Below are positions 21,749 to 26,505 of a stretch of DNA of 62,306 nt, piece after piece (the stretch's first letter is position 1; every line of letters begins with the position of its first letter). The stretch lies in contig JARXAE010000038.1 in the NCBI GenBank assembly GCA_029866005.1, forward strand, positions 1-62,306. Direction: 5' to 3'. Both the position numbers and the translations under genes were made by a program. The DNA is from Fimbriimonas sp. Lineage in GTDB: Bacteria; Armatimonadota; Fimbriimonadia; Fimbriimonadales; Fimbriimonadaceae. Below the pieces are notes generated by a model, which did no database searches, was not told the origin of the DNA, and worked only from the letters and a program-made list of their open reading frames with translations.

Positions 21749-23683
21749 TTAGCGAACTTGCGTTCCTTCGGGTGCCTCGCGATCTGGCTGCAGAAGAATG
21801 GCTCCACCGTTCTCGTCCGTCGCCGCGAGGAGCATCCCTTGGCTCTCAGTTCCGCGCAGCTTAGCTGGCTTGAGGTTGTAGACAACTACGACCTGTCGTC
21901 CGATCAAATCCTCTGGCGAGTAGTTCGCTCGAATTCCCGCAACGATCTGCCGCTTCTCCTCGCCGATGTGCACCTGGAGCTTCAGCAACTTGTCGCTTCC
22001 CTCGAGAGGCTCGGCCTCAAAGACCCGACCAACCCGCAACTGAACCTTTGCAAAGTCATCAATCGTAATGATTCCGGTCGTCTCTTCTGCTGGCTTCTTT
22101 GTTTCTTCCATCTTGGGTTTCTCAGGTTTTTCGGGCTTTTCGGGTGCGGGGACCTTCGAGAGGTCGATACGGGGGAAAATTGGCTGTGGCTCGTTCAAAA
22201 CGGTACCTGCGGGCAACGAATCCGGCGATCCAATCAGCGACCAGTCGGCGGAAGGTGCAACCCCAAGCTGACGAGCAACCTCGTCACACACTGTTGGCAT
22301 AAACGGCCGCAGCATCCCCTCGGCTGCTCGAACGCAGAGGATCATTGATCTCAGAACGGAAGCCAAAGCCGGATCGCCCGCCTTTGCTAACGCCCACGGG
22401 GCCCGGGTGTCGACATACTTGTTGACAAATCGAATGACATCAATTCCGGCGTTCGCCGCACGTTCCAATCGGAACCCAGTCATCGCCTCCTCGTAAGCGG
22501 TCTTGCATCGAGTGATCGCTTCTAAAACCTCCGCCTCCACTGGCGCATCGGGAACGATTCCGTCCACAAACTTGTGCGCCATTGCCAACGATCTGTTTAA
22601 GGCATTGCCTAAATCGTTAGCCAAATCGCTATTGTATCGCTTATGGAAGTCCTCATAAGTGAACGTAGAATCGTTCTCGTATCCCATCGTCGCCGTAATG
22701 TAGTAGCGAACAACATCCACTGCCACGGCAGGCGAGCAACCGGCCAAAGCCGCCGTCTCTGCCGCCAACTCTAACGGTCGAACAACATTCCCCTTCGACT
22801 TCGATATCTTTTCTGTGCCGAGCAAAATCCAGGCGTGAGCAATCACGTGCTTAGGCAGCGGCAAATCCGCGCCCATCAGCATTGCTGGCCAAAGCGTCGC
22901 GTGGAACCGGGTCAGAATGTCCTTTCCGAGCCACTGCGCCTCCGCCGGCCACTTTTCCTCCCAGCCCGGATTCGGCCACCCAGTCGCCGTGATGTAATTG
23001 ATCAGAGCATCAAACCAAACGTAGATGACCTGCGACTCATCCCCCGGAACCGGAATCCCCCAGCCGTTGTTCTTGCGCGAAACGCACTGGTCCATCAGCC
23101 CAGATTTGATGAACGAAACAACCTCGTTCTTACGCGTTTCCGGAATGATGAAAGAAGGATTCGCCTCGATATGCGCCAGCAACCGATCCCCAAATGCCGA
23201 GAGCTTGAAGAAGTAGTTTTCCTCGCTCACCCACCGGACTTCATTGCCGTCTGGGCTCTTACCGTCAACTAAGTCAGCTTCCTTGAAGTAAGTCTCGGTC
23301 GAAACGTCATACCAACCCTCATACTTGGCGGTGTAGATGTAGCCGTTTTCCTGAAGCTTGGCGAACAGTGCCTGCGAAGCCGCACGATGCTCGGGAAGGG
23401 AAGTGCGAACAAACTTGTCGAACTTCATGCCCATGCCGTCAAAAATCTCGATAAATCGTTGCGCAATCTCGGCCGTAAACTCATGCGGATCCCGGCCCAA
23501 AGCCTCCGCAACTTCCTTGATCTTGAGCCCATTCTCGTCCGTCCCCGCGACCGAAAAAACATCTTGGCCCCGCATCCGCAGGTACCGAGCCGTCACATCG
23601 CCCGACAGCGTCGTCAAGATATTCCCGATATGCGGTGTGCTATTCACATAGGGAATAGCCGTCACGATGGTGGTCTTCGGCAT
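21749..23683 (-). CDS. metG: Methionine-tRNA ligase with C-terminal tRNA-binding domain
   Basis: 644 residues. Class I aminoacyl-tRNA synthetase that charges tRNAMet. The HIGH-type motif is TPHIGNILT (about 17), the KMSKS loop is EKISKSKGN (about 300), and an anticodon helical bundle follows. After a Lys/Pro/Glu-rich linker (about 525-550) there is a Trbp111/EMAP-like OB fold (IDDFAKVQLRVGRV to the end). The connective peptide reads GWYDVSTETYF and DGKSPDGNE where B. subtilis-type enzymes have a CxxC...CxxC zinc knuckle: all four Cys are gone. It diverges from ileS with a palindromic promoter. A -10-like TAAACT lies 8 nt before the ATG. Confidence 0.96.
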   Translation of the reverse strand: MPKTTIVTAIPYVNSTPHIGNILTTLSGDVTARYLRMRGQDVFSVAGTDENGLKIKEVAEALGRDPHEFTAEIAQRFIEIFDGMGMKFDKFVRTSLPEHRAASQALFAKLQENGYIYTAKYEGWYDVSTETYFKEADLVDGKSPDGNEVRWVSEENYFFKLSAFGDRLLAHIEANPSFIIPETRKNEVVSFIKSGLMDQCVSRKNNGWGIPVPGDESQVIYVWFDALINYITATGWPNPGWEEKWPAEAQWLGKDILTRFHATLWPAMLMGADLPLPKHVIAHAWILLGTEKISKSKGNVVRPLELAAETAALAGCSPAVAVDVVRYYITATMGYENDSTFTYEDFHKRYNSDLANDLGNALNRSLAMAHKFVDGIVPDAPVEAEVLEAITRCKTAYEEAMTGFRLERAANAGIDVIRFVNKYVDTRAPWALAKAGDPALASVLRSMILCVRAAEGMLRPFMPTVCDEVARQLGVAPSADWSLIGSPDSLPAGTVLNEPQPIFPRIDLSKVPAPEKPEKPEKPKMEETKKPAEETTGIITIDDFAKVQLRVGRVFEAEPLEGSDKLLKLQVHIGEEKRQIVAGIRANYSPEDLIGRQVVVVYNLKPAKLRGTESQGMLLAATDENGGAILLQPDREAPEGTQVR

Positions 23684-23691
23684 GAACCCCT

Positions 23692-23724
23692 AGTTTACCG
23701 GGGCAACCCGGTTTCCCGGTAAAC
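23692..23724. promoter_or_regulatory. Palindromic divergent promoter of metG and ileS
   Basis: AGTTTACCGGG (23692-23702) and CCCGGTAAACT (23714-23724) are perfect 11-bp inverted arms around an 11-nt centre that carries a third CCCGGT. Each arm presents TAAACT as a -10-like box facing outward: 8 nt from the metG ATG and 12 nt from the ileS ATG. The two promoters must overlap, so RNA polymerase or one shared regulator could coordinate both synthetase genes. Confidence 0.6.
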
Positions 23725-23736
23725 TGTTAGGTTCAA

Positions 23737-26505
23737 ATGGACTTCAAATCGACTCTCCATCTCCCGGACGCTGAAGCGACAATCCCCATGAAGGCGAACC
23801 TGCCGACCTTGGAGCCGTCGATTCAGCAGATTTGGGATTCAGAGGCGATTTATCACAAACTCCAAGAAGCCCGGAAGGACTGCCCGAGCTACGTCCTCCA
23901 TGATGGCCCGCCTTACACGAACTCGCCGATCCACATCGGAACTGCGATGAACAAAATCCTGAAGGATTTTGTTCTTAAGAGTCGCCAGATGATGGGCTTC
24001 AGAACCCCTTACGTTCCGGGATTCGATAACCACGGTCTGCCTATCGAGCAAGCCGTGATGAAGAAATTCGTGGAAAAGAAGATCACGCCTACGATCCCTG
24101 AACTTCGCCAAGCCTGCCGCGACCACGCTTCCGAATACCTCGCCATCCAACGCGACCAGTTCAAAAGGCTTGGCATCTTCGGCCTTTGGGAAAAACCTTA
24201 CACGACGATGGACTTCCGGTTCGAAGCCGAGATCGTGCGAGTGTTCCGTCGCCTTGTTGAGAAAGGCTATGTCTATAAGGGTCTCCGACCAACCCTCTGG
24301 AGCCCCACCAGTCGAACCGCCCTTGCAGACACCGAGATCGAGTACCACGACCACGTGAGTAAGGCGATCTATGTCAGATTCCCCCTCAAGAGCGATCCAA
24401 ACCAAGAGCTAGCCGGACTAGACAACGTCTACACCGTGATCTGGACCACTACGCCGTGGACGATCCCCGCAAACCTTGCCTGCGCCTTCCATCCCGAGTT
24501 CAACTACGACGTCGTCAAGGTCGGCAACGATCACTACATCATCCTCCAAGACCTCGTCGCCAAAGTCGCCGAGAAAGTCGGCTGGGCCGAGTACACCACC
24601 GTCAAAACTCTCGAAGGGATCAACTTCGACAAGATTGAGTTCAAACACCCGATTTTTGACCGATCCAGCCTCGCCGTCATGGCAGACTACGTCACGACAG
24701 AGGACGGAACCGGCGTCGTCCACACTGCCCCCAGTCACGGACGTGATGACTTCTTCACCGGGCAAAAGTACAATCTGGGAGTCCCGAACACGGTTGACGA
24801 GAGAGGAGTCCTTACGCACGAAGCCGGTGAGTTCGAAGGTGTCTTCTACAAGAACTGCGACACTGTCGTAGTCGAACGACTCCAAGAAGTCGGAGCCCTG
24901 CTCAGTGTCAGCGATTACCAACACAGTTACCCCTACGCCGAGCGCGATGGCCAGCCCGTGATCTTCCGCGCCACCGAGCAATGGTTCCTTAGCCTTGAAC
25001 ACGAGGGCCTACGGGGACGAATGCTTGACAGCATCCAAGACGTGAATTGGGTCCCGAGTCAGGGCCAAAACCGCATTGAGGCGATGATCCGAAACCGCCC
25101 CGACTGGTGCATCTCTCGACAACGCCCTTGGGGAGTCGGAATCCCGGTCTTCTATGGTCGCAAGTCTCGAGTTCCGGTGCTTGATCCGGTTGCCATCGAT
25201 GCGGTTGCGAACCTAGTAGAAGCCGAAGGCTCCGACGCCTGGTTCATCAAAGAAGCCGCCGACATTCTTCCCGCCGGTTATGTCCACCCCGAAACTGGCG
25301 AAACCGAGTTCGACAAGGAAACCGACGTCCTCGACGTCTGGTTCGACTCCGGTTCCACCTCCCTCGCAGTCCTTGAAGGCAACGTCTATCCCGAGTGGAA
25401 AGAGAACTGGCCCGCGGACATCTACCTCGAAGGCTCTGACCAACACCGAGGCTGGTTTAACACATCTCTCATCCTCGGCCAAGCCACTCGCGACGGCGCG
25501 CCTTACAATACCGTCCTCACCCACGGTTTTGTTACCGATGGCGAGGGACGCAAAATGTCCAAGCGCCTCGGCAACGTCGTAGACCCGGTCAAAGCCTGTG
25601 CCGACTACGGTGCCGATGTCGTCCGCTATTGGGTCGCTGGAACCGATTACGCAAACGACGTCCCCTGCAGCGATCCGATTCTGAAGCAGTTCGGCGAGAG
25701 CTACCGAAACATCCGCAACGCACTCCGCTTCCTGATCGGAAACCTGAAAGGTCACACCGCGGACTCGGTCGAAACGCTGCTTCCCATTGACCAATGGTTC
25801 ATCGAGCAAGCCGACCTCCTCGTCACCGATTGCATCGACGCCTATGAGCGGTTTGATTTCGGAACCGTGATGTCGAGCGTCCACAACTTCTGTCGCCAAC
25901 AGCTCTCCGCCTTCTACGCCGATGCAGTCAAGGACCGGATGTACTGCGACGCTGAAGACTCCGCTGAACGAAGATCCGGCCAACAAGCTTGCTATGAAGT
26001 GGCGGAAAAGCTGATCAAGCTCATCGCTCCGGTCTTGGTCCACACCGCCGAAGAGAGTTGGCTCAAGATGCATGAAACCCTCGGCGTGAAGCCAACTTCA
26101 GTCTTCTTCGAGACCTTCGATGCCGTTAGCATTGACGAGATTGAAGGCAGCGAACTCCAACAACGGTTCGCCGCGGTCATCGCAGCCAAGCAGGTCGTCA
26201 ACAGCTCGTTCGAGCCGTACAAGGGAACCGACGGGATCAAGAACTCACAAGACGTCGTCGCGAAACTCGCCGTTGACGCCACCGAGAAACAACTTCTCGA
26301 AACCTTTACTGCCGACGAACTAGCGAACTTCTTCAAAGTCAGCTGGGTTGAACTGGCTGAAGGGGAGCCTGCTGTGACGTTTGTGAAATCGCCCTACAAC
26401 GAGTGCATCCGCTCCCGAGTCCGGCGGCCCGACGTTGCCGAAGTCGAAGTGGACGGAGAAAAGGTTTTCCTGAGTGCCCGCGACCGAAAGGTGCTTGATC
26501 TTTGA
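23737..26505 (+). CDS. ileS: Isoleucine-tRNA ligase
   Basis: 922 residues, typical bacterial IleRS size. Charges tRNAIle and carries a CP1 editing domain. Motifs are PIHIGTAMNK (HIGH site, about 67), the editing-domain TTPWTIPANLA, DVWFDSGS, and GRKMSKRLGN (KMSKS). The C-terminus aligns with the Cys4 zinc-finger tail of bacterial IleRS but reads ECIRS and LSARD where CERCW and LCARC are expected, so three of four zinc ligands are missing. The TGA overlaps the TTG start of lspA. It is divergently transcribed from metG. Confidence 0.97.
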   Translation: MDFKSTLHLPDAEATIPMKANLPTLEPSIQQIWDSEAIYHKLQEARKDCPSYVLHDGPPYTNSPIHIGTAMNKILKDFVLKSRQMMGFRTPYVPGFDNHGLPIEQAVMKKFVEKKITPTIPELRQACRDHASEYLAIQRDQFKRLGIFGLWEKPYTTMDFRFEAEIVRVFRRLVEKGYVYKGLRPTLWSPTSRTALADTEIEYHDHVSKAIYVRFPLKSDPNQELAGLDNVYTVIWTTTPWTIPANLACAFHPEFNYDVVKVGNDHYIILQDLVAKVAEKVGWAEYTTVKTLEGINFDKIEFKHPIFDRSSLAVMADYVTTEDGTGVVHTAPSHGRDDFFTGQKYNLGVPNTVDERGVLTHEAGEFEGVFYKNCDTVVVERLQEVGALLSVSDYQHSYPYAERDGQPVIFRATEQWFLSLEHEGLRGRMLDSIQDVNWVPSQGQNRIEAMIRNRPDWCISRQRPWGVGIPVFYGRKSRVPVLDPVAIDAVANLVEAEGSDAWFIKEAADILPAGYVHPETGETEFDKETDVLDVWFDSGSTSLAVLEGNVYPEWKENWPADIYLEGSDQHRGWFNTSLILGQATRDGAPYNTVLTHGFVTDGEGRKMSKRLGNVVDPVKACADYGADVVRYWVAGTDYANDVPCSDPILKQFGESYRNIRNALRFLIGNLKGHTADSVETLLPIDQWFIEQADLLVTDCIDAYERFDFGTVMSSVHNFCRQQLSAFYADAVKDRMYCDAEDSAERRSGQQACYEVAEKLIKLIAPVLVHTAEESWLKMHETLGVKPTSVFFETFDAVSIDEIEGSELQQRFAAVIAAKQVVNSSFEPYKGTDGIKNSQDVVAKLAVDATEKQLLETFTADELANFFKVSWVELAEGEPAVTFVKSPYNECIRSRVRRPDVAEVEVDGEKVFLSARDRKVLDL

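Follow-up and report, generated by a model that had tools for sequence, protein, structure and literature searches.

Where the promoters of a divergent gene pair overlap in the ordinary way, each lies within the footprint of the other. The bidirectional promoters of Escherichia coli are described in the accessible parts of PMC12825309 as having one common -10 element and transcription starts that are mostly 18, but also 10 or 23 bp apart, which is too close for two polymerases at once. According to the same text, the two directions do not compete at basal activity, and competition is seen only once one of them has been strongly activated (PMC12825309). Leaderless genes with a TANNNT motif whose first T lies about 12 nt ahead of the start codon need no -35 element and constitute a large minority of genes; in the available parts of the two sources they are known above all from Actinobacteria and Deinococcus-Thermus (PMC3160421; PMC12340547). 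Armatimonadota were not met among the phyla in the accessible part of PMC3160421, and in that of PMC10783764 Fimbriimonadia appears only within an anti-Shine-Dalgarno table. Our partial coverage of the literature returned no promoter study of Armatimonadota or Fimbriimonadaceae as judged by title or the beginning of the abstract.

The DNA analysed here, referred to as the window, is a stretch of 62,306 nucleotides from Fimbriimonas sp. Within it, metG and ileS are found in divergent orientation with 53 nt between them, as given by ORF calls with Pfam support. The 922-aa ORF is putatively ileS rather than the gene for another class I synthetase, the name having been given by the reader of the sequence. 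The intergenic region contains an inverted repeat, AGTTTACCGGG and CCCGGTAAACT, with arms of 11 bp that are 100% complementary and a loop of 12 nt, and the initial annotation was thus right about both the coordinates and the perfection of the arms. It had also placed a TAAACT -10-like box in each direction at near-leaderless distance. This holds as well, since the gaps from TAAACT to ATG (8 nt for metG, 11 nt for ileS) fall within the range of about 6-12 nt that marks a TANNNT motif ahead of a start codon, and the box is conserved in relatives. The inner edges of the two hexamers are 22 bp apart, and there is no single -10 element common to both directions. No sigma-70 consensus promoter with a -35 element was called in positions 23400-24000. 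The features are listed in Table 1.

Table 1. Features of the metG/ileS locus (window coordinates), and the loci of the most frequent back-to-back gene pair of the order
Feature	Position	Strand	Basis or remark
metG, methionyl-tRNA synthetase, 644 aa	21749..23683	-	ORF call; Pfam tRNA-synt_1g and tRNA_bind; relatives
metG start codon	23683-23681	-	
Predicted metG transcription start zone, 0-3 nt leader	23683..23686	-	Predicted from the -10 position only
metG -10 hexamer TAAACT	23697-23692	-	8 nt before ATG
Left arm, metG promoter box (very probable) CCCGGTAAACT	23692..23702	-	Inverted-repeat search; box kept before metG in relatives
Spacer, 12 nt, with third CCCGGT at 23707-23712	23703..23714	.	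Not conserved; the spacer of G001 differs and has 13 nt
Right arm, ileS promoter box (very probable) CCCGGTAAACT	23715..23725	+	Inverted-repeat search; box kept before ileS in relatives
ileS -10 hexamer TAAACT	23720-23725	+	11 nt before ATG
Predicted ileS transcription start zone, 2-5 nt leader	23732..23735	+	Predicted from the -10 position only
ileS start codon	from 23737	+	
ileS (putative), isoleucyl-tRNA synthetase, 922 aa	23737..26505	+	ORF call; Pfam tRNA-synt_1 and Anticodon_1; relatives
DUF1015-like / polyprenyl synthase-like loci	L104-L109, L111-L113, L124, L125, L127-L130, L134, L150-L155		

The palindrome is in all likelihood composed of two separate leaderless-type housekeeping promoters that face away from each other, its symmetry being a by-product of their common consensus. 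Each of the two arms very probably serves as the -10 promoter element of the synthetase gene next to it, at a distance that is near-leaderless. Each carries the recurring box of the order, with a consensus of about CGGTAnACT, in which GG stands directly in front of a TANNNT -10 hexamer. This box would be melted, without the need of a -35 element, by RNA polymerase, presumably carrying the main sigma factor, and the mRNA would begin 0-5 nt before the ATG. The short intergenic region would then read as a near-perfect palindrome because the same consensus is used on opposite strands, and the dyad symmetry itself is, within this explanation, not a binding site. The metG and ileS boxes resemble those of leaderless TANNNT genes in Actinobacteria and Deinococcus-Thermus in their position near the start and in their predicted -35 independence, while the boxes of Armatimonadota/Fimbriimonadaceae differ by the GG in front and by a core that reads TAnACT. 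With ordinary divergent pairs the locus shares the mutual overlap of footprints, but its boxes are also the leader-free start signals of the genes, so that the intergenic region is only 53 nt. In contrast to the E. coli bidirectional promoters in the accessible text of PMC12825309, metG/ileS has two -10 boxes, and its predicted starts, unmapped and derived from the -10 positions, are about 46-52 bp apart. The arrangement is tidy but ordinary, and very probably belongs to the known leaderless TANNNT promoters, here in a poorly studied phylum. A conspicuous palindrome can thus arise merely from two promoters of the same consensus facing away from each other, which calls for caution in palindrome-based operator prediction in leaderless-rich genomes.

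The use of the box was followed in 462 kb of the source genome, made up of 21 stretches (the window and 20 stretches of 20 kb) with 380 ORFs that were called crudely from stop to stop and begun at the first ATG. Of these ORFs, 97 have TANNNT upstream of the first ATG at a gap of 5-12 nt. The enrichment is positional; for 377 first starts there are 103 matches at gaps 5-12 compared to 27 at gaps 20-27. The peak is at gap 6, where the frequency is 8.2%, whereas distant positions give about 1% and internal ATGs 0.4%. Among the 97 ORFs the commonest hexamer is TAAACT (15), followed by TAGACT (9). G is enriched at the two positions preceding TANNNT, and no -35 signal was found upstream of it in this sample. 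In the whole genome the pattern CGGTANACTN{5,10}ATG occurs 19 times, compared to once for a backward control pattern, and all of the 61 genomes searched (61/61) have at least one match, although a few relatives display no clear enrichment over the control (e.g., 13 vs. 10 in G010 and 1 vs. 4 in G045). For a phylum that has received little study, the box supplies a promoter consensus that can be put to use.

When it comes to the two synthetase genes, metG was found in 60 and ileS in all 61 of 61 genomes, including the source genome (G000). By coordinates they lie at most 1 kb apart in only three of the 61 (G000, G001, and G018), a lower bound given that many of the genomes are fragmented. Upstream DNA was compared for 30 metG loci and 30 ileS loci; L006, L052, and L055 have incomplete flanks, and L055 gave no leader. 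The best-matching TANNNT of each locus fits GGTANA[AC]T in 24 of the 30 metG loci and 29 of the 30 ileS loci, leaving six and one without a fit, and the exact GGTAAACT is present in 15 and 18, respectively, all counts that the choice of the best site per locus pushes up somewhat. As the box is present before metG and before ileS across the relatives, it belongs to each gene singly and not to the pair. An 11-nt match is found in only 2.2% of metG-ileS box pairs drawn from other relatives. The perfection of the palindrome is accordingly in the tail compared to the box pairs of relatives; the separated boxes of G018 match equally well.

With 22 bp between the hexamers, a polymerase on one promoter would cover the other, and judging from this spacing two could not be bound at once, as is likewise the case for the promoters in the accessible part of PMC12825309. 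Mutual exclusion between two polymerases at the metG and ileS boxes is therefore plausible. The initial annotation went further and held that the two promoters must compete or be co-regulated. This is too strong and not warranted, since the basal activity of the E. coli bidirectional promoters was too low for competition (PMC12825309, accessible part).

Box pairs of this kind are not confined to metG and ileS. In the 462-kb sample, TANNNT boxes are found on both sides in five of 80 divergent pairs, metG/ileS among them, and in three more of the five the starts are no further than 29-35 nt apart. The 113 genomes of the order were searched for AGT[T/G/C]TACC-spacer-GGTANACT, allowing a spacer of 6-60 nt, and 87 loci were examined, further matches existing beyond these. 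A locus was counted as positive when, on both sides, a start codon lay at a distance of 4-14 nt from the box and opened a frame of 50 codons or more. Start codons flank the box pair on both sides in 51 of the 87 loci, compared to 111 of 3671 positions picked at random within these loci, and protein clustering reduces the 51 loci to 23 gene pairs with pattern lengths from 22 to 72. A DUF1015-like / polyprenyl synthase-like pair, named from reading the sequences, accounts for 22 loci and has a pattern length of mostly 33-37, but also 24 and 41. ileS is found in this layout with metG (34, 35), with a small ORF (35, 35, 26), and with a prfA-like gene (71, 71), while a metG relative has another partner once, in L115 from G055, with a pattern length of 30. 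No fixed or helically phased spacing of the boxes is claimed; pattern lengths in the family of the window do cluster at 33-37, but the 22 loci represent one orthologous pair, and the overall range is 22-72. Box pairs in genomes of family f2 often have GGTATACT and are often much closer (pattern length 22-26) than those of the window's family. Divergent starts that are only 33, 29, and 35 nt apart are found at L078:6659-6692, L078:12663-12692, and L088:1762-1797, respectively, where the TANNNT boxes nearly touch; these are nearer to the strict bidirectional type than metG/ileS. The set of natural divergent pairs constitutes material for testing polymerase exclusion.

One wider reading of these pairs is that back-to-back leaderless promoters form a recurrent regulatory architecture in the order, in which the boxes lie within each other's polymerase footprint, one polymerase would act at a time, and the two outputs would be tied without a regulator. 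Conservation would then be strongest in the DUF1015-like/polyprenyl synthase-like pair, with metG/ileS as a recent instance, but we regard this as doubtful. For the locus itself it is unlikely that the layout is a selected coupling device that balances the two synthetases through polymerase exclusion at overlapping promoters. The geometry would suit such a device, as the 22 bp between the hexamers would make the footprints overlap, and so would the recurrence of the layout in 23 gene pairs and the three different partners of ileS. However, metG and ileS were seen as neighbors only in three close genomes, one of which, G018, does not have the layout, the boxes of the ileS pairs lie at very different distances (pattern lengths 34, 35, 26, 71), and the E. 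coli bidirectional promoters showed no competition at basal level in the accessible part of PMC12825309.

The two other genomes with neighboring metG and ileS serve as natural experiments on what the dyad is. A perfect repeat of this size might be read as an operator at which a dimeric transcription factor controls metG and ileS together, and G001 at first sight agrees with this: both arms are letter-identical to those of the source genome, although the spacer differs in sequence and part of the metG leader has also changed. The spacer of G001 is, however, 13 nt as against 12, so the spacing of the half-sites is not fixed, and half-sites recur singly before metG, before ileS, and before unrelated genes. 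In the sister genome G018, metG and ileS are separated by 643 nt with two small minus-strand ORFs inside, and both flanking boxes are still CCCGGTAAACT; the palindrome is lost and both boxes are kept. Both small ORFs lie in locus L032; one matches DUF433 (E 3.4e-15) and the other DUF5615, the latter below the family cutoff (E 1.6e-4). Together they resemble a pair of the toxin-antitoxin type, presumably, and perhaps one inserted between the boxes; PADLOC gave no match for this ORF pair. That the two halves have been kept when apart is what two promoters would lead one to expect, but not what one would expect of an operator dyad, and an operator is very unlikely. The conservation of the palindrome in relatives, which had been proposed as a check, is borne out by the arms of G001 but not by its loop, nor by G018 with its separated arms. 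There is no support for treating the palindrome as a single functional unit of both genes, as the box recurs singly before metG or ileS and two small genes lie between the arms in G018.

Even less probable is that the palindrome acts as a hairpin or cruciform, be it a terminator, an RNA switch, or alternative structures formed through the third CCCGGT. As DNA, the 53-nt region folds better than its shuffled versions (z = -4.0; none of 200 shuffles fold as well). Both predicted starts lie outside the arms, so neither mRNA would contain the hairpins, and hairpins in the metG and ileS mRNAs are therefore unlikely. No terminator-like site was called at the palindrome, and no Rfam family reached the gathering score anywhere in the window, on which ground T-box or riboswitch control was also rejected. 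The third CCCGGT noted initially is indeed present, but the importance given to it through alternative hairpins is not upheld, as it is absent from the spacer of G001 and the predicted starts lie outside the palindrome. A chance inverted repeat without function is the least credible reading of all: perfect inverted repeats of 11 bp around a loop of 3-20 are a common class in the 462 kb of this genome (41 cases), but a perfect repeat of at least 11 arose in only 24 of 20000 dinucleotide shuffles of the 53-nt region, which places it locally above chance, and both G001 and G018 have the same two arms although the spacer has changed, as has part of the metG leader in the case of G001. Such conservation of the arms beside diverged flanks contradicts a chance origin.

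Two minor features are seen around the start of ileS. The stretch between its box and the ATG (23726-23736 in the window) contains GGT[TC]C, often as AGGTTC, in 13 of the 30 ileS loci (L031-L060), and could be a start-site signal or a weak ribosome-binding signal. A direct repeat, TTCAAATGGAC / TTCAAATCGAC, with a period of 11 nt and two copies only, spans the ileS start codon at 23732-23753 and is possibly of chance origin.
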